NCBI RefSeq assembly: GCF_016446285.1
Contig: NZ_CP054140.1
Coordinates: forward strand, 2,461,501 to 2,525,500
Source: Desulfobulbus oligotrophicus
GTDB lineage: Bacteria; Desulfobacterota; Desulfobulbia; Desulfobulbales; Desulfobulbaceae
Length of the DNA: 64,000 nt
Reading direction: 5' to 3'
Of this stretch, positions 13,949 to 21,784 are shown one piece after another. The notes beneath the pieces are model-generated. The model was given only the letters and a program-made list of their open reading frames with translations. It searched no databases and was not told where the DNA came from. The position numbers were made by a program, and so were the translations under genes. The first letter of the stretch is position 1; every line of letters begins with the position of its first letter.

Positions 13949-13955
13949 CTTAAGG

Positions 13956-13985
13956 TTGACAGTTCTCTAGCATCAGTGATACATA
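13956..13985 (+). promoter_or_regulatory. Promoter of tRNA-Pro
   Basis: TTGACA at 13956-13961, an 18-base spacer and TACATA at 13980-13985, about 18 bases before the mature tRNA. The -35 is perfect, the -10 moderate. Confidence 0.5.
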
Positions 13986-14002
13986 CACTCTCGACAATAC
14001 AT

Positions 14003-14079
14003 CGGAACGTAGCGCAGTCTGGTAGCGCACCTGAATGGGGTTCAGGGGGCCGGAGGTTCAAATCCTCTCGTTCCGACCA
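14003..14079 (+). tRNA. tRNA-Pro (anticodon GGG), used as integration site
   Basis: Acceptor CGGAACG pairs with CGTTCCG, D-arm GCGC/GCGC, anticodon stem CCTGA/TCAGG with loop ATGGGGT (anticodon GGG), T-arm GGAGG/CCTCT (with a G-T pair) around TTCAAAT, and encoded ACCA. Its 3' part, from the anticodon arm on, is repeated at 21166-21213, so the present 3' half was supplied by the integrated island. Confidence 0.96.
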
Positions 14080-14080
14080 A
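14033..14080 (+). repeat. attL: 48-bp direct repeat within tRNA-Pro
   Basis: Starts GAATGGGGTTCAGGGG in the anticodon arm and ends GACCAA one base past the CCA. Identical to 21166-21213; the flanking bases differ (CT before it here, AA before the right copy). Confidence 0.92.
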
Positions 14081-14088
14081 TAAAAACA

Positions 14089-14128
14089 AGGGGTTAGGCG
14101 ACATAAAGCGCCTCACCCCCTTTTCTTT
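14089..14128 (+). terminator. Rho-independent terminator after tRNA-Pro, brought by the island
   Basis: GGGGTTAGGCG pairs with CGCCTCACCCC around a short A-rich loop (one T-C mismatch), followed by a T-rich tract. It lies inside attL, so it is island DNA that now terminates the tRNA transcript. The likely original terminator remains beyond attR at 21219-21251. Confidence 0.8.
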
Positions 14129-14227
14129 TTGGCGTAAACAGAGAAACTGGGCTTTTTGTGTCAACTTATTGTTTTTTGGTTGTTAGTCGTAATTTCAACT
14201 CGTTGTCGCTCGTTGCTCCACATTTAA

Positions 14228-14260
14228 TTTTACGCCAAATTTTACGCCAAATTTTACGCC
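14228..14260 (+). repeat. Tandem 12-bp repeats, candidate integrase arm sites (left)
   Basis: TTTTACGCCAAA occurs at 14228 and 14240 and again, without the final AAA, at 14252-14260, ending directly at the ATG of the integrase remnant. The inverse GGCGTAAA occurs near 14131. Related copies lie near the right end (21107-21128). Confidence 0.55.
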
Positions 14261-14644
14261 ATGGCCACGATCAGAAAACGGTCAGGACGACACGGCACCG
14301 CTTACCGGGCAGAGGTCTGTGTCAAGGGTAGGCGGGAGTCGGCCACTTTCGATACGCTCTCTCTGGCGGCAGCGTGGGCGGAAGAGACAGAGGCTCTACT
14401 TCGTGCAGGGGGAGCGCTACCTGGCGAAGCACCTCCCGGCGACATGGAGTTTGCCGCGGCAGTCGAAAAATATATATTTGCCGTAGCGCCCAGAAAAAAA
14501 CAGAACACCCGTCGCCTAAAGATCGACAAAAATGGCGAACGCCTGCTCGTGAGCGACAACCCAGCCTACGACCCCGTCAAACCCAACGGTGAATATAGAA
14601 TTATCGGCGTGGCTATAAACTGGGTGCGACTGGGAAAGCTCTGA
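14261..14644 (+). pseudogene. Deletion fusion: tyrosine integrase N-terminus joined to S24/CI-type repressor C-terminus
   Basis: Residues 1 to about 85 match the arm-binding start of phage tyrosine integrases (MATIRKRSGRHGTAYRAEV, ATFDTL..AAAWAEETE) and the beginning of the core-binding domain (AVEKYIFAVAPRKK). From about residue 88 the sequence changes to the closing segment of S24/LexA-like phage repressors (GERLLVSDNPAYDP, RIIGVAINWVRLGKL). The catalytic R-H-R-Y domain of the integrase and the DNA-binding part of the repressor are missing. A deletion fusing both gene ends in frame explains this; the product is unlikely to recombine DNA. No ribosome-binding site is visible before the ATG. 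Confidence 0.7.
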
Positions 14645-14674
14645 AACGACGGAAAATTATCGAAAGGTTAAGCC

Positions 14675-15238
14675 ATGATACCGTTTCATCAAGCATGCCT
14701 GTTTGTTTTCGCAATTGTATGTTCGGCTTCGGTCGCACTCCTTCATGGCAGCGCAAATTGTTCCTCATACACTGACATATCCATCGAAACACAACGAGCC
14801 GCTGAAGGGATTTTATTAAGGCATCCTGAACTAGCCACCAACGATGCGCTGATGGAAAAAATGCTATCAATCATTCAACACTACGAGAGGCTGGGTAACA
14901 CCAGGAACCAAGCTATCTCCCGCGCAGAAAACGATATGATCAGAAACGGCCTCTTGTTGAGCGAAAAAGAGCGTCAGCGCCGAGCTGCAATGAACGGTAA
15001 AGAGCAAGAACGGGCTGTTTCTGGCGTTATAGAAAGCAGGATTGATGGCGATTTCAACGGCTGGGAAGGTGAAACTATCGTACGTTTAAGCAACGGACAG
15101 ATATGGGAACAAGATCAATATTATTACGAATACCGTTATGCCTATATGCCGAAAGTCATTGTTTTTATCAGCGATGGAAGGTGGAAGATGCTGGTTGACG
15201 GAACATCTCGGGCGGTTCCGGTGGCCAGGTTGAAGTAG
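14675..15238 (+). CDS. Secreted protein of unknown function (island cargo)
   Basis: 187 residues. The first 27 form a signal peptide (hydrophobic CLFVFAIVCSASVALLHGSA), with export to the periplasm or outer membrane expected. The middle (about 35-115) is charged and helical (IQHYERLGN, SEKERQRRAAMN); the C-terminal 65 residues (VIESRIDGDFNGWEGETIVRLSNGQIW) look like a small beta barrel of SH3 type. I do not recognise the family. It lies 39 bases before the J-domain protein gene on the same strand, so both are probably co-transcribed. Confidence 0.7.
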   Translation: MIPFHQACLFVFAIVCSASVALLHGSANCSSYTDISIETQRAAEGILLRHPELATNDALMEKMLSIIQHYERLGNTRNQAISRAENDMIRNGLLLSEKERQRRAAMNGKEQERAVSGVIESRIDGDFNGWEGETIVRLSNGQIWEQDQYYYEYRYAYMPKVIVFISDGRWKMLVDGTSRAVPVARLK

Positions 15239-15277
15239 AAGAACATATCAAACCTTACTTAATCTAGGCAGAGGCGC

Positions 15278-16780
15278 ATGGAATACAATTTCGACCCCTC
15301 GGTAGATTATTACGCAAGGCTGGGACTATCCCCTCAAGCTGAGGAGAACGTCATTAAGGCCGCATACAGGGCCTTGTCCCAGAAATACCATCCCGACAAA
15401 AATGGCGGGGACAACAGTCGAATGCAGGAGCTCAACGAAGCATACGCCATTTTGTCAACGCATGAATCTAAGGCGGCCTACGATGAAGCCAGGAAATCAT
15501 TCAACAATACCTATAGAGGGAATGGTTTTTCAACTGAGAACCATAGTAACGGAAACCATGGGACAGGCAAACCTGATGCAAAGGCCACAGTAACAGCGCC
15601 TCGCTGGTCTCGTTTTTTTGCTAGAATTTTTGACTTATGGCTTGAAGTCCTGGTCGTATCCTTGGTGGTAGGGCTTGTTGCTGGCTACATCTTTCCATCG
15701 TTCTGGGCGTGGCTGGAAAAGCCAGGAGCGGACGCGGTTTTGGGAATTATTACAATGCCGGTTGCCCTCGTGCTGGATGCCGTCATTTTTTCCATATTCG
15801 GAAATACCCCAGGAAAAGCTATCCTTGGCTTGAGAATATTAACAAAAGACGGACAGGTCCTCAGTTTCGCTCAATACCTACAAAGAAACTTGTCAGTGTG
15901 GGTCTATGGGCTTGGGCTTGGAATTCCCATTGTGAACCTGTTCACAATGGCTGCGCAAGGTAATCGTCTCAAAAAAGGAATGCCAACCAAATATGATGAG
16001 CAATCAGGGTATACAGTTCAAACGGGAGATACCACTTGGATTCGAAGGTCTGTTTTTGGCGTTTCTGTTATATCATTGTTATTTCTTATCTCTATTTTCA
16101 ACACCATAAAAAAGGGAAACAAAGAATACAGACATGACGAATCTTTAGAAACAACAACTCAAAGCAAAAATATTGATAGAATGATTGACGATATTTTTGA
16201 TACAGACAATAAACAAAAAACAAAACAAAATCATTTAGATCAATCTAAAATACAAAATAACAGTGGAGATTACAGCGATCCAGAAAAAAGATCGGAAAGA
16301 ATAATAAATTTATACAACGCAGGGGACTATACTGAAGTAGTAAAAGAAGCAGAATCAGGAGATTTCCTTAAAAACGTTTCAAATATAATAGGTATATCCA
16401 TGTACAATACAGGTCAATTCAAAAGATCCTTGTACATGTTTCTGGATGCAGAAGAATTGTATCCAGATGATTTTGCAATAAAGTGCAATCTTGGCGACTC
16501 GTACCTGAAAAATGGAAACTTATCTATGGCTCTGTGCAAGTATATCGAGGCGCAAAACATCAATCCTGATAATGAATATATTAATAACAAAATAAGATAC
16601 ATAGAAAGTAATGTTGACTTTTCATCTTTTGGATACAAAATGAGGCCCATAGACATTGAATTAAAAAAGGTTGAGGCGCAAAGTGTATTTAATTTTCTTG
16701 AGCAAATTAATTATCATGAAAGAATAACTGAAATCAAAATAATTTATAAGGGAAATTCTTCAAAACTAGCAGGCTGTTGA
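15278..16780 (+). pseudogene. J-domain / RDD membrane / TPR protein, 3' end cut off by an IS5-type element
   Basis: Residues 8-72 form a J-domain with the HPD motif (QKYHPDKNGG) that would stimulate a DnaK-type Hsp70. Residues about 105-235 form an RDD membrane domain (RFFARIFDLWLE, NTPGKAILGLRI) with several hydrophobic segments; another lies near 255-273, then a charged linker and a TPR-like region (about 335-450). The frame ends at a stop inside the IS (KLAGC). Removing the IS and one CTAG copy restores the frame with 18106-18233, adding about 42 residues and a natural stop. The last third is much richer in A+T than the first two thirds. Whether the shortened protein still works is unknown. 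Confidence 0.8.
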
Positions 16781-18101
16781 AAAACAGGAAAATACGAGAC
16801 AAGGGTTGTTTATTTGCCCTTCGATAGCTCTTTGACAGTGAGCCCTTGGCCGTTTGTTTGTCATGATGTGTTGCCGGTTTTCATCTTCCGAGGCGCTTCA
16901 AGCCGCTCTGATGAGGATTTCCCCTCTTATCCAGAGGTAACTACCCCCAGATTACGCATTCGGACCATGTTGTAGGCTGCCGCAGAGAGCGTGAACAGCC
17001 AGTCTATCTTTTCCACGCCTTTGTATCTGGCTTTGCGTAACCAGGCGACGGTCTTCATCCAGCCAAATATCTCTTCCACCCGTTTGCGTTTTTTCCGGCT
17101 CACAGCATAACCTGCATGACGGGTGGTCCGGCCATCGATGGCGGAGCCTTTGACTTTCTGCGCTACATGTGGAGTAACGGTCAGGATGCGCAGGTCATCG
17201 ACGAACTCCTTGCAGTCATACCCTTTGTCCGCGCCGATGGTGACTCGATGTGTGCCCGGAATATCCGAAGCCATGGAAAGGGCGGCCTCGCGCTCCGCCG
17301 TCCCGGTTGCCTGGGTCAGGCGGGTATCGACGACCAAACCGTTCCGATTTTCCATCAGCACATGCCCCATGAAGCAGAGCCTGGCCTCCTTGCCTTTTCC
17401 TTTTCTGAACAGCCGGGATTCTGGATCGGTGACCGATGCGTGCGTGTCATTGCGACGCTTTTTCCCGTGGAAATCCACTGCCGGATTGCGGTTGCCGCCG
17501 GTAGAGACCGGAGGCTCCTCATCTTTGGGCCGAAAGCTCTTCAGCGATGCCCACGTTTCGATCAGTGTGCCGTCAACGGTGAAATGGTCGTCAGACAAGA
17601 GTCCGGCTGCCTCGGCTTGGGAACAGATGGATCGCAAGAACATCACCGCAAGATCACTGTGCAGAATGCGCTCCCTGTTTTTGGAATAGACGGAGTGATC
17701 CCAAATTGCTTCATCCATGGACAGGCCGACAAACCAGCGAAAAAGAAGATTGTAATCAAGCTGTTCCACCAACATCCGCTCGCTCCGGATCGAATAAAGG
17801 ATTTGCAGCAGCAGGGAGCGAAGCAGTTGCTCGGGCGGAATCGATGGTCGTCCTGTTCGTGAGTAGAGTTCCCGAAACACGGGAGAGAGTTCCTTCAGCG
17901 CTTTATCAGCCATGATTCGGATAGGGCGCAGGGGATGCGTTTGGGGAACCCGGGATTCGGGGGAGAGATAGCTGAACAATTTCTGTTGCTGAATGTCAGG
18001 ACCGCGCATATTTCCACCTGTTTGTCAGTTATTCCAAATGGTTGGATAATACACGGTATTGTTTTACATGTCCCGTTGTTTATGAGTTTTTCAACAGCCT
18101 G
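16770..18101 (-). mobile_element. IS5-family insertion sequence, copy 1
   Basis: A 1332-bp element with 16-bp terminal inverted repeats (CAGGCTGTTGAAAAAC at 16770-16785, complement ending at 18101), flanked by CTAG at 16766-16769 and 18102-18105. A 4-bp CTAG-type duplication fits the IS5 subgroup. It holds one transposase gene on the minus strand and has interrupted the J-domain gene. It is nearly identical to copy 2. Confidence 0.93.
16927..18009 (-). CDS. IS5-family DDE transposase (copy 1)
   Basis: 360 residues. The N-terminal DUF772-like domain (QLLRSLLLQILYSIRSERM) is followed by the DDE core: HFTVDGTLIETW (first D), TIGADKGYD (second D) and RKRVEEIFGWMKT (E). It differs from copy 2 at only three residues seen by eye (I/S in DDLRILTV, V/E in KGVEKID, T/A in VVTSG), so the copies parted recently. 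Full length and apparently intact. Confidence 0.93.
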   Translation of the reverse strand: MRGPDIQQQKLFSYLSPESRVPQTHPLRPIRIMADKALKELSPVFRELYSRTGRPSIPPEQLLRSLLLQILYSIRSERMLVEQLDYNLLFRWFVGLSMDEAIWDHSVYSKNRERILHSDLAVMFLRSICSQAEAAGLLSDDHFTVDGTLIETWASLKSFRPKDEEPPVSTGGNRNPAVDFHGKKRRNDTHASVTDPESRLFRKGKGKEARLCFMGHVLMENRNGLVVDTRLTQATGTAEREAALSMASDIPGTHRVTIGADKGYDCKEFVDDLRILTVTPHVAQKVKGSAIDGRTTRHAGYAVSRKKRKRVEEIFGWMKTVAWLRKARYKGVEKIDWLFTLSAAAYNMVRMRNLGVVTSG

Positions 18102-18105
18102 CTAG

Positions 18106-18233
18106 TAACGTTAAGTCTTAACAATATTCCATACGACCTTGTATTTGCTGTCGTTTTGCATCTCGGCAACCTTGAGTCTGTAAACTACGGAGAAGAAATA
18201 TACGTGTACAACAAAAGGCAGACAAAACAATAA
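18106..18233 (+). pseudogene. Severed 3' end of the J-domain/RDD/TPR gene
   Basis: Joined to 16769 across one CTAG, this continues the reading frame as VTLSLNNIPYDLVFAVV to NKRQTKQ and a TAA at 18231-18233. It has the same A+T-rich composition as the 3' part of the interrupted gene. It has no start codon or ribosome-binding site of its own other than IS DNA. Confidence 0.85.
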
Positions 18234-18319
18234 AACATAAACAAAATTCCTGTGGCTGGTAAGTAAAGGTCAATGAGCAAACTTACTGGAAAATAATTCA
18301 GCAGACCGACGAGGATATA

Positions 18320-18487
18320 ATGCCTCCTAATCGCCCTTTATTTAAAAAATCAATAGTTGAACTGGAAGAAGAATACAAACGTGCAGATGCATCTAGAGAC
18401 ACAGACGCAATAAAAGCCCTTTCTCACGAGCTTTCATACAGGAAAACGGATCGGGCAGGAAAACTGACTAGTGTCCCGTGCGGTTAA
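18320..18487 (+). CDS. Small charged protein, C-terminus altered by an IS630-type insertion
   Basis: ATG 18320 has GAGG six bases upstream. The 55-residue product begins MPPNRPLFKKSIVELEEEY and includes ALSHELSYRKTDRAGKLT; it looks fully helical. The last codons come from the IS630 end (SVPCG, stop at 18485-18487). Without the insertions the sequence would read ...KLTR and stop at a TAA, giving 51 residues, so the insertion changed only the tail. I do not recognise a function. It is downstream of the J-domain gene on the same strand and may have been part of the same transcript. Confidence 0.55.
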   Translation: MPPNRPLFKKSIVELEEEYKRADASRDTDAIKALSHELSYRKTDRAGKLTSVPCG

Positions 18488-19606
18488 TAGAGTCTTTTAA
18501 TATTTCTTGTGTTATAGTGCCGTATGGCACGCAAACACGAGAAATTTACGATAACAGACGAACAACGCCAAGACCTTGAGGCGTTGTTGCGCTCACCGAA
18601 AACAGCCCAAGATCTGGCATCTCGGGCCAAGATTATCCTCTTAACGGCATCAGGTAAAACTGCCGAGGATTTGATTGTCGAATTAGGGACAACTTTTCGC
18701 ACAATCTATCGATGGAGGAAACGATTTAAAGAGTATGGCATCCACGGGCTTGTCGATCGTCCTCGTAGCGGCCAGCCAAAAAAACTGACCGATGCAACGG
18801 TCAAAGAAGTTTTGCGGATGACAGTTGAGTGCATTCCTCATGAGGCAACCCATTGGAGTGTTCGCCTTATGGCCAAAGCCGCCAAGGTCACCACGTGGCA
18901 GGTGCGACAGATATGGAATGCAGCCGATTTAAAACCGCATCGGCTTAAAAATTTCAAAATCAGCAATGATCCGAATTTTGCTGAGAAAGTAATCGATATT
19001 GTTGGCCTGTACATGAATCCACCTGAAAATGCGGCTGTGTTTTCCGTTGATGAGAAAACGCAGATTCAAGCGTTGGATCGTACCCAGCCAATGTTGCCCA
19101 TGCGGCCCGGCCAGATTGAGCGTCGCACGCATGATTACAAACGAAATGGCACCACCAATTTATACGCTGCCTTCGACATTTTAACCGGACAAGTGCTTGG
19201 CCGAACAACCAAAAGGCATCGAGCCAAGGAGTTTCTCGACTTCTTGCGGCAGTTGAATAGGGCCGTTCCAGCCGAGGTTGCCCTCCATGTCATACTGGAC
19301 AACAGCAGTACCCATAAAACGGCAGATGTGATGCAATGGCTCAAGGCCCACCCTCGGTTTACGTTCCATTTCACACCAACCAGTGCATCATGGCTGAATG
19401 CGGTTGAAAGCTGGTTCGGCCAACTGGAGCGCAGAGCCATCCACCGAGGGGTGTTTACAAGTGTCAAAGATCTCAGAGATGAAATCCACCGCTTCATCAA
19501 GCAGCACAATAACAGATCGGCCAAGCCATTCACATGGACAAAGACTGCAGCGGTGATACTTGAAAAGGTCTCAAAATTAAAAGACGACACTAACCAAACA
19601 GGACAC
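18471..19606 (+). mobile_element. IS630-family insertion sequence
   Basis: 1136 bp with imperfect inverted ends (GTGTCCCGTGCGGTTAAT at the left; GTGTCCTGTTTGGTTAGT reading inward from the right, 14 of 18 identical), flanked by TA at 18469-18470 and 19607-19608, the duplication typical of IS630/Tc1. IS5 copy 2 later inserted into the CTAG formed by its last base, the TA and the next G. Confidence 0.85.
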
Positions 19607-19609
19607 TAG
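18524..19609 (+). CDS. IS630-family DDE transposase
   Basis: 361 residues: an N-terminal helix-turn-helix region (SGKTAEDLIVELGTTFRTIYRW, GLVDRPRSGQPKKL) and the catalytic motifs FSVDEKTQIQ (D), HVILDNSSTH (D) and WLNAVESWFG (E). The stop codon TAG at 19607-19609 is made of the target-site TA and a flanking G, so the element does not encode its own stop. Reading frame intact. Confidence 0.92.
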   Translation: MARKHEKFTITDEQRQDLEALLRSPKTAQDLASRAKIILLTASGKTAEDLIVELGTTFRTIYRWRKRFKEYGIHGLVDRPRSGQPKKLTDATVKEVLRMTVECIPHEATHWSVRLMAKAAKVTTWQVRQIWNAADLKPHRLKNFKISNDPNFAEKVIDIVGLYMNPPENAAVFSVDEKTQIQALDRTQPMLPMRPGQIERRTHDYKRNGTTNLYAAFDILTGQVLGRTTKRHRAKEFLDFLRQLNRAVPAEVALHVILDNSSTHKTADVMQWLKAHPRFTFHFTPTSASWLNAVESWFGQLERRAIHRGVFTSVKDLRDEIHRFIKQHNNRSAKPFTWTKTAAVILEKVSKLKDDTNQTGH

Positions 19610-20940
19610 CAGGCTGTTGAAAAACTCATAAACAACGGGACATGTAAAACAATACCGTGTATTATCCAACCAATTGGAATAACTGACAAACAGGTGGAAA
19701 TATGCGCGGTCCTGACATTCAGCAACAAAAATTGTTCAGCTATCTCTCCCCCGAATCCCGGGTTCCCCAAACGCATCCCCTGCGCCCTATCCGAATCATG
19801 GCTGATAAAGCGCTGAAGGAACTCTCTCCCGTGTTTCGGGAACTCTACTCACGAACAGGACGACCATCGATTCCGCCCGAGCAACTGCTTCGCTCCCTGC
19901 TGCTGCAAATCCTTTATTCGATCCGGAGCGAGCGGATGTTGGTGGAACAGCTTGATTACAATCTTCTTTTTCGCTGGTTTGTCGGCCTGTCCATGGATGA
20001 AGCAATTTGGGATCACTCCGTCTATTCCAAAAACAGGGAGCGCATTCTGCACAGTGATCTTGCGGTGATGTTCTTGCGATCCATCTGTTCCCAAGCCGAG
20101 GCAGCCGGACTCTTGTCTGACGACCATTTCACCGTTGACGGCACACTGATCGAAACGTGGGCATCGCTGAAGAGCTTTCGGCCCAAAGATGAGGAGCCTC
20201 CGGTCTCTACCGGCGGCAACCGCAATCCGGCAGTGGATTTCCACGGGAAAAAGCGTCGCAATGACACGCACGCATCGGTCACCGATCCAGAATCCCGGCT
20301 GTTCAGAAAAGGAAAAGGCAAGGAGGCCAGGCTCTGCTTCATGGGGCATGTGCTGATGGAAAATCGGAACGGTTTGGTCGTCGATACCCGCCTGACCCAG
20401 GCAACCGGGACGGCGGAGCGCGAGGCCGCCCTTTCCATGGCTTCGGATATTCCGGGCACACATCGAGTCACCATCGGCGCGGACAAAGGGTATGACTGCA
20501 AGGAGTTCGTCGATGACCTGCGCAGCCTGACCGTTACTCCACATGTAGCACAGAAAGTCAAAGGCTCCGCCATCGATGGCCGGACCACCCGTCATGCAGG
20601 TTATGCCGTGAGTCGGAAGAAACGCAAACGGGTGGAAGAGATATTTGGCTGGATGAAGACCGTCGCCTGGTTGCGCAAAGCCAGGTACAAGGGTGAGGAA
20701 AAGATTGACTGGCTCTTCACGCTCTCAGCGGCAGCCTACAACATGGTCCGAATGCGTAATCTGGGGGTAGTTGCCTCCGGGTAGGAGGGGAAATCCTCAT
20801 CAGAGCGGCTTGAAGCGCCTCAGAAAACAAAAAATGGCAACACACCATGACGAAAAACGGTCAAGTGCTCACTGTCAAAGAGCTATCGAAGGGCAAACAA
20901 ACAACTCTTGTCTCATGTTTTCCTGTTTTTCAACAGCCTG
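19610..20940 (+). mobile_element. IS5-family insertion sequence, copy 2 (inverted relative to copy 1)
   Basis: 1331 bp, starting CAGGCTGTTGAAAAAC and ending in its complement, flanked by CTAG at 19606-19609 and 20941-20944. It is one base shorter than copy 1, with scattered differences near its transposase-distal end. Together with copy 1 it makes a large inverted repeat around the IS630 element. Confidence 0.93.
19702..20784 (+). CDS. IS5-family DDE transposase (copy 2)
   Basis: 360 residues with the same DUF772-like start and the D-D-E motifs HFTVDGTLIETW, TIGADKGYD and RKRVEEIFGWMKT as copy 1; full length. A long frame on the opposite strand is a shadow of this gene. Confidence 0.93.
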   Translation: MRGPDIQQQKLFSYLSPESRVPQTHPLRPIRIMADKALKELSPVFRELYSRTGRPSIPPEQLLRSLLLQILYSIRSERMLVEQLDYNLLFRWFVGLSMDEAIWDHSVYSKNRERILHSDLAVMFLRSICSQAEAAGLLSDDHFTVDGTLIETWASLKSFRPKDEEPPVSTGGNRNPAVDFHGKKRRNDTHASVTDPESRLFRKGKGKEARLCFMGHVLMENRNGLVVDTRLTQATGTAEREAALSMASDIPGTHRVTIGADKGYDCKEFVDDLRSLTVTPHVAQKVKGSAIDGRTTRHAGYAVSRKKRKRVEEIFGWMKTVAWLRKARYKGEEKIDWLFTLSAAAYNMVRMRNLGVVASG

Positions 20941-20944
20941 CTAG

Positions 20945-21165
20945 GTAACAGGCGCGCTCGACCTGATGAAGAGAAGCATCCCTGGGATACTGCGGAAGCG
21001 ACCAAGGCCAATGTATTGCCCAGCCCAATACCAAGGAGACGGCCAGTGCATTGCGAACTGCCGGCAACAGCACGGAAGATGCATATCCAGATGCAGGCGA
21101 GCGGACATTACGCCAAATTTTACGCCAATCTTTTGCAACATCCTGAGACTATCAACATTCCTCAA
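20945..21165 (+). other. Right end of the island, no convincing gene
   Basis: About 220 bases between IS5 copy 2 and attR. Open frames run through it into the tRNA fragment, but their ends (such as GGSNPLV) are translation of the tRNA repeat. It is probably the residue of a phage gene or attachment arm; it contains TTACGCCAAATTTTACGCCA near 21107. Confidence 0.5.
21107..21128 (+). repeat. Repeats related to the left 12-mers, candidate integrase arm sites (right)
   Basis: ATTACGCCAAATTTTACGCC, two units of the 12-bp motif found at 14228-14260, located 38 bases before attR. Confidence 0.5.
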
Positions 21166-21213
21166 GAATGGGGTTCAGGGGGCCGGAGGTTCAAATCCTC
21201 TCGTTCCGACCAA
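21166..21213 (+). repeat. attR: 48-bp copy of the tRNA-Pro 3' end
   Basis: Identical to 14033-14080. It lacks the 5' half of the tRNA, so it is not a functional tRNA gene; it is the displaced original 3' end. Confidence 0.92.
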
Positions 21214-21218
21214 GATGT

Positions 21219-21251
21219 CCAAGGGTTACGGTCAAACCGTAACCCTTGTTT
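21219..21251 (+). terminator. Likely ancestral tRNA-Pro terminator, stranded beyond attR
   Basis: AAGGGTTACGGT pairs perfectly with ACCGTAACCCTT around CAA and is followed by GTTTT. Placed seven bases after the repeated tRNA end, it fits the terminator of the tRNA before integration. Confidence 0.85.
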
Positions 21252-21307
21252 TATGGCTCATCCTCCTTGGGCACACAGATAACCCGACTCATCCGGAGAG
21301 GCTTCAA

Positions 21308-21784
21308 ATGCATCCTGTCATTCCCATCGGTACCATATATTCACCGCACACATCGATTGAAAATATGCCTATCCAGCCGAAGGGTGCAGCAGAGTTTCAA
21401 GGGATGGTTGTGGTGGATGAACAGTACATCGATGGACTGCAGGATCTTGCCGGCTTCAGCCATATATACCTCTTGTACAGTTTTCATAAGGCAACTCGAA
21501 CAGAACTGCTGGTTACCCCATTTCTTGATCAGCAGACAAGAGGTGTTTTTGCCACCCGCTCCCCATTGCGACCCAACCATATCGGACTGTCCATTGTTCA
21601 GCTGAAACGTATTGATGGCAACACACTCTATGTACAGGGCATAGACGTGCTTGATGGAACCCCCTTATTGGATATCAAGCCTTATGCTGAAAAATTTGAT
21701 GCCGTAAAAAATAGCCGCTCCGGATGGATGCAAGCCAGTGAAAAGGAGATTCGAGAAAAACGATCTGACAGCAGATTCAGCTGA
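21308..21784 (+). CDS. trmO: tRNA (N6-threonylcarbamoyladenosine-37) methyltransferase, TrmO/TsaA family
   Basis: 158 residues beginning MHPVIPIGTIYSP, with the family features GFSHIYLLYSFHKA, FATRSPLRPNHIGLS and LDIKPYAEKFD. E. coli TrmO methylates t6A37 of threonine tRNAs using S-adenosylmethionine. ATG 21308 has GGAGAGG six bases upstream; the open frame extends backwards through attR only by chance. It is the first chromosomal gene after the island. Confidence 0.88.
   Translation: MHPVIPIGTIYSPHTSIENMPIQPKGAAEFQGMVVVDEQYIDGLQDLAGFSHIYLLYSFHKATRTELLVTPFLDQQTRGVFATRSPLRPNHIGLSIVQLKRIDGNTLYVQGIDVLDGTPLLDIKPYAEKFDAVKNSRSGWMQASEKEIREKRSDSRFS

Follow-up and report, generated by a model that had tools for sequence, protein, structure and literature searches.

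The open reading frame (ORF) at 14261–14644 of the window (the whole 64,000-nucleotide stretch of Desulfobulbus oligotrophicus DNA analysed here) is an in-frame join of two gene parts of different origin. It lies on the + strand and has 127 codons, encoding 127 amino acids, in which the start of an integrase (residues 1–86) runs into the C-terminal end of a Peptidase_S24 protein of the LexA/CI type (residues 84–123). The original prediction of a fusion between an integrase N-terminus and a repressor-type C-terminus is confirmed, both halves being matched well above chance. The in-frame state of the join alone is not above chance, as one third of random joins would be in frame. The ORF is most probably (probability about 0.82) a decay scar, generated by a deletion that joined integrase codons 1–86 to the end of an S24-type repressor gene. 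As a kind of event such a scar is ordinary genome decay; the join itself is real and well defined.

Two gene parts in one reading frame

The integrase-derived part, codons 1–86 (14261–14518, + strand), consists of an arm-binding-type domain and the start of the core-binding region. A profile search of each half had been suggested. For this half, a profile of 12 related integrases covers residues 1–90 with an E value of 1.6e-33 in a search of this one sequence. Pfam finds no family in the 85-residue N-terminal part alone, and NCBIfam assigns none to the whole ORF. The closest relative is the integrase of a congener, genome G022, which is 71% identical over residues 1–96. That integrase has a full-length frame with PF00589 at E 2.8e-29 and is located directly behind tRNA-Pro(GGG), after ihfA-like and merR-like genes, in the same order as in the window. 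Its phage relatives (925 records) are all below 60% identity, and the ten matches listed are at 30–32%.

The N-terminal part contains no stop codon and retains all 11 of the columns in its stretch that are invariant in the 12 relatives. Such an intact state would be expected if the event were recent or a function had been kept, and it is counted against the reading as a decay scar. The rest of the integrase is gone. When two whole integrases were used as queries, the window was matched only up to their residues 95–96. PF00589 is absent from the ORF, which has no catalytic domain with the conserved Arg and His residues and the Tyr. The loss of the catalytic domain, as first proposed, is thus borne out by the absence of integrase residues past 95–96 from the window.

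The structural model of the fusion has a beta-beta-beta-alpha arrangement over residues 2–49 (strands 2–9, 12–21 and 24–30, helix 33–49), with a mean pLDDT of 92–96 over residues 1–50. The same elements make up the first domain of a model of the G022 integrase, which was used solely for this comparison. PMC8138268 gives this architecture for arm-binding domains. The integrase profile and the predicted fold together agree with the expectation that an arm-binding domain had been left over, in that a domain of this type is present. Structure look-ups with the fusion model returned mostly double-stranded RNA-binding domain (dsRBD) chains with Foldseek (best E 0.05), and dsRBD chains, one AP2 domain and others with VIA-align (best Z 6.1, residues 1–51). 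There is no integrase among the matches listed, which excludes nothing as the fold arrangement is a common one. Searching the sequences of solved structures with integrase N-termini gave a single row, unrelated, at E 0.63.

The S24-derived part (14510–14644, + strand) extends from the Lys column, occupied by Arg84, to the end of the ORF and is the C-terminal end of a LexA/UmuD/CI-type protein. This column is presumably that of the catalytic Lys, in agreement with the LexA numbering in the structure matches. Pfam Peptidase_S24 matches residues 81–119 with the C-terminal 41 of its 116 positions, reaching the profile end (116/116), at E 0.0024 and 18 bits, which is under the curated cut-off of 23.3 bits. 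PHROG 4, 'transcriptional repressor', matches the tail at E 5.8e-5. A tblastn search with the tail finds an intact 214-amino-acid HTH-S24 protein in G022 at 1e-7, with 56% over 40 amino acids. The S24 assignment proposed for this half holds in the PHROG and tblastn searches, the Pfam match lying below its threshold. When the tail was combined with seven other S24 tails, the resulting profile found the structures of UmuD, LexA and lambda CI (best E 1e-8, 2.2e-7 and 0.0038), a result that those seven rows might produce by themselves. Matches of the tail to phage repressors (mEp021 and six more records) are weak, at E 0.1 to 0.6. With the S24 protein as query, the window is matched only from its residue 164 on. 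Among 257 genomes of the order, three have a match to the tail alone, the window's own included, and there is no second copy of the tail in the window's genome at E up to 10. From residue 91 on the model is not confidently folded (pLDDT 42–52), which says little about the tail since the input alignment held integrase N-termini only and no S24 relatives.

The likeness of the fusion to Peptidase_S24 proteins such as LexA, UmuD and CI is therefore confined to approximately the last 40 residues. Unlike these proteins it has no HTH and no Ser region, and has Arg at the Lys column. It lacks the Ser-Lys dyad and is not a peptidase, nor is it a repressor. The S24 relative that is intact in G022 (L018:11565-12209) reads G-E-A-M at the position where active S24 proteins carry Ser, and its Lys column is likewise occupied by Arg. 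From its sequence the G022 protein may be a non-cleavable repressor.

The junction and the proposed deletion

The two homologies overlap in codons 84–86 (R-R-L; 14510–14518, + strand), a zone that is alike in the alignments of both parent families. The window reads N82-T83-R84-R85-L86-K87, compared with N-T-R/Q-R-L-D in the five closest integrases and x-x-K/R-x-L in the S24 tails. From a first mixed alignment of integrase and S24 sequences the integrase rows alone were used. The overlap places the breakpoint within or near these codons, in short similar sequence. Searches of the window with two integrases and one S24 protein recovered nothing more of either parent gene, other matches being at E values of at least 0.036. 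Both catalytic centres have therefore been lost.

A single natural protein family covering the ORF is extremely improbable. Matches over residues 26–122 in genome G507 and 29–122 in G444 at first looked near full-length, but realignment gave 34% identity with gaps and set the integrase part on the S24 core. The two proteins are rejected as full-length relatives, being LexA-like S24 proteins encoded next to what by eye resembles a Y-family polymerase gene. Among 55 relatives, of which 17 gave any match at E 0.001, and 395 genomes of the phylum, of which 11 matched at all, no protein uniting both halves was found. Likewise, none of 257 pattern stretches in genome_contigs and none of 19 in viral_contigs was confirmed as a relative of the fusion, these being scans that reach close relatives only. 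One family over all 127 residues in other genomes, the alternative named in the original prediction, was thus looked for and none was found. An assembly artefact that brings the two genes together is highly improbable, given that the genome is a single contig, 99.99% complete, and that no repeat of at least 18 bases occurs at the junction within 14000–21400.

A decay scar would have arisen as follows. A tyrosine integrase gene with an arm-binding (AB) domain would once have been located directly behind tRNA-Pro(GGG), reading into the integrated element, with the S24 gene probably downstream on the same strand of the same element. One deletion ending in short similar sequence, the R-R-L codons, would have joined integrase codons 1–86 to approximately the last 42 codons of the S24 gene. 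This would have cost the integrase its catalytic domain and the repressor its DNA-binding part, Ser region and Lys, and the product would be functionless. Insertion sequence (IS) elements would have disturbed the element further at a later stage, if this order of events is correct. Lacking the catalytic domain, the element cannot excise by its own integrase. The earlier reading as a deletion scar fits well as regards the removal of both active sites, whereas the prophage origin attached to it is not supported.

A degraded island in tRNA-Pro(GGG)

The ORF starts 181 bases past the end of tRNA-Pro(GGG) (14003–14079, + strand, identified with ARAGORN), the integration target. A 48 bp core repeat made up of the 3' half of the tRNA (attL copy, 14033–14080, + strand) has an exact copy at 21166–21213 (attR copy, + strand), with 7,085 bases between the two. 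A 28-base part of this repeat is present twice in the window, against 0.00 expected from shuffles. This is a tRNA-borne integrated island of approximately 7.1 kb with the core repeat at both borders. In Pfam searches, the five island ORFs besides the fusion are two cargo genes and three transposase genes. One cargo gene (14675–15238, + strand) encodes a 187-amino-acid protein of no known family (no Pfam match over cut-off, no NCBIfam or PADLOC match), which among 55 genomes is present only in the window's own. The other (15278–16780, + strand) encodes a DnaJ-RDD-TPR protein, as identified with Pfam, and its 3' end runs into an IS. This IS starts at 16765, within the end of the ORF, and therefore probably truncates it. 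Two near-identical inverted copies of the IS (16765–18106 and 19605–20944), 98% complementary over 1253 nt, lie around a further transposase gene (18524–19609) that is taken to be of the IS630 type. The whole structure spans 16765–20944 and IS sequence in the island totals approximately 4.2 kb.

The element had been read as a prophage, for which support is lacking. No island gene examined with Pfam, PHROGs or NCBIfam is recognised as a phage gene, and PHROGs, run on the fusion and the 187-amino-acid ORF only, finds no structural family. The island is degraded, so that the present absence of phage genes is no proof for its past. In none of 99 integrase loci examined (several overlapping, most with 3-kb flanks) was the integrase seen to be followed by a phage-type S24 gene in the same orientation. 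An S24 gene is near the integrase in three of the 99, in two of these in opposite orientation and in the third (L059) on the same strand, approximately 7.5 kb away and with a LexA-like C-terminus. As neither a prophage nor a parent with an integrase and a downstream phage-type S24 gene was found, a single deletion between two prophage genes is at most something that we infer. 

A non-phage island is the better guess. In genome G014 a DrmD-like helicase and a type IIG-like restriction-methylation protein are encoded behind a related integrase at the same tRNA-Pro. In another stretch of G014, in which no tRNA was found, the genes accompanying a close integrase encode a type I methyltransferase and a DndD-like protein. 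The island headed by a close integrase in G009 contains type I restriction genes and a gene for a PtuA-like ATPase, again with no tRNA found in the stretch. These are PADLOC names, given to eight selected ORFs of the three islands (L062:7343-16149, L060:8575-16734 and L063:10371-19341). The tRNA-Pro elements of G005, G002 and G022 run off their contigs. PADLOC finds no defence gene among the two cargo genes of the window's island, and the window itself therefore gives no sign of having been a defence island.

It is possible, if rather doubtful, that the join was made between two different elements and not within one, either through tandem islands in one tRNA or through an S24 gene outside the integrase's element. 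The closest S24 relative, in G022, is 16 kb upstream of the tRNA-Pro element and not inside it, and in G009 a partial tRNA-Pro copy beside a second integrase-like gene (by eye) suggests stacking there. However, a second element would be needed, of which nothing else is recognised in the window, and a single deletion is simpler.

The 29-kb contig of G022, which carries an integrase and an S24 gene on the same strand, was considered as a circular phage parent and rejected. It has no exact terminal overlap of 11–400 bases, its genes look chromosomal by eye (tig, clpP/X, lon, thrS and pheST-like) and its S24 gene is upstream of the tRNA. Another G022 contig (L101:6795-6843) has a copy of the 3' half of tRNA-Pro, likely an attR, that adjoins a small gene pair resembling a toxin-antitoxin system by eye.

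Decay of the integrase at tRNA-Pro is recurrent. This tRNA was found in 42 of 59 genomes of the family, and 30 loci were fetched. Five of the 30 have this integrase behind the tRNA. The copies of G005 and G022 are full-length, and those of the window, of G011 (a 120-amino-acid ORF departing from the integrases) and of G023 (an internal stop) are broken. Further full-length integrases at tRNA-Pro are found in G002 and at one place in G014. In 25 of the 30 loci there is no clear copy of this integrase (weak matches down to E 0.005). The window's right flank, the TrmO gene, follows the tRNA within approximately 1.5 kb in none of the 30. Elsewhere in the window's own genome (L003:1447-1692) there is a second truncated integrase start, at tRNA-Arg, beside genes that by eye resemble IS3-type transposases.

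Arm-like repeats and the retained domain

Three copies of TTTTACGCC at 12 bp spacing precede the ORF (14228–14260, + strand), the last abutting the ATG. They are likely arm-type sites, and two arm-like copies, the first imperfect, are present inside the right end (21107–21126, + strand). Tandem repeats precede 14 of the 17 integrase starts in a first set, and no more than 4 of 500 shuffles equal them; two of the three starts without repeats belong to truncated integrases. In a second set (L103–L182), a tandem repeat within 80 bases before the start was found in 56 of 75 loci, some of them near-identical, against 3.7 expected from shuffles. The spacing is 11–12 bp in 50 of these 56. Across 51 loci the similarity of the repeats tracks the identity of the first 50 residues, with a partial rank correlation of 0.58 when the catalytic domain is controlled for. 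The reverse, repeat similarity against the catalytic domain, gives 0.06. None of 300 permutations reaches this result, a test that is lenient with related sequences. On these sequence patterns, the tandem repeats before integrase starts are likely arm sites.

The locus shares several features with the tRNA-associated AB-domain tyrosine integrases, of which PMC8138268 describes six subgroups. These are the N-terminal domain of three strands and one helix, the core repeat at the 3' end of the tRNA, the reading direction away from the tRNA and the arm-like repeats. In contrast to those integrases, the fusion has no catalytic domain and is without most of its core-binding domain, and it cannot recombine. 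In E. coli prophages, including KplE1 with its intS gene, the integrase is autoregulated where attL overlaps its promoter (PMC2951348). By analogy, the intact integrase genes are likely to be autoregulated as intS is. The locus has in common with KplE1 IntS-type genes (PMC2951348) that attL and arm sites overlap the integrase start region beside a tRNA. It differs in host and in the missing catalytic domain, and regulation in the fusion is only putative.

Residual DNA binding by the retained N-terminal domain is possible. It is unlikely that the fusion keeps a job, in which this domain would bind the 12-bp repeats, repress its own transcription or block a related integrase, and help to lock the island. 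The arm-binding-type domain is predicted with high confidence and retains the 11 invariant columns, three repeats abut the ORF start with two in the right end, and the repeats covary with the first 50 residues in 51 relatives (0.58 against 0.06). Integrase autoregulation is also known from the E. coli prophages (PMC2951348). However, the fusion is found in one genome only, and synonymous sites have reached saturation in all five comparisons with relatives. There is by eye no Shine-Dalgarno-like sequence before the ATG, promoter-like matches over 13950–15300 are near chance (3 against a mean of 1.7) and the S24 tail is a mere fragment of its domain. It is very unlikely that the deletion made a working occupant of the arm sites, silencing its own gene and blocking excision by related integrases, such that the scar would keep the island fixed. 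The other full-frame integrase of the genome, found by similarity to the N-terminal part, is 42% identical and is located at tRNA-Leu. Its repeats differ, and rescue in trans therefore looks unlikely.

As a decay scar the ORF is clean, a single join having cost both active sites while the borders and the arm-like sites remain, and it illustrates the fixation of a mobile island. The covariation between the repeats and the N-terminal domain matters more than the scar. It would allow arm sites to be predicted, and would make it possible to test which residues of the arm-binding domain set its specificity.
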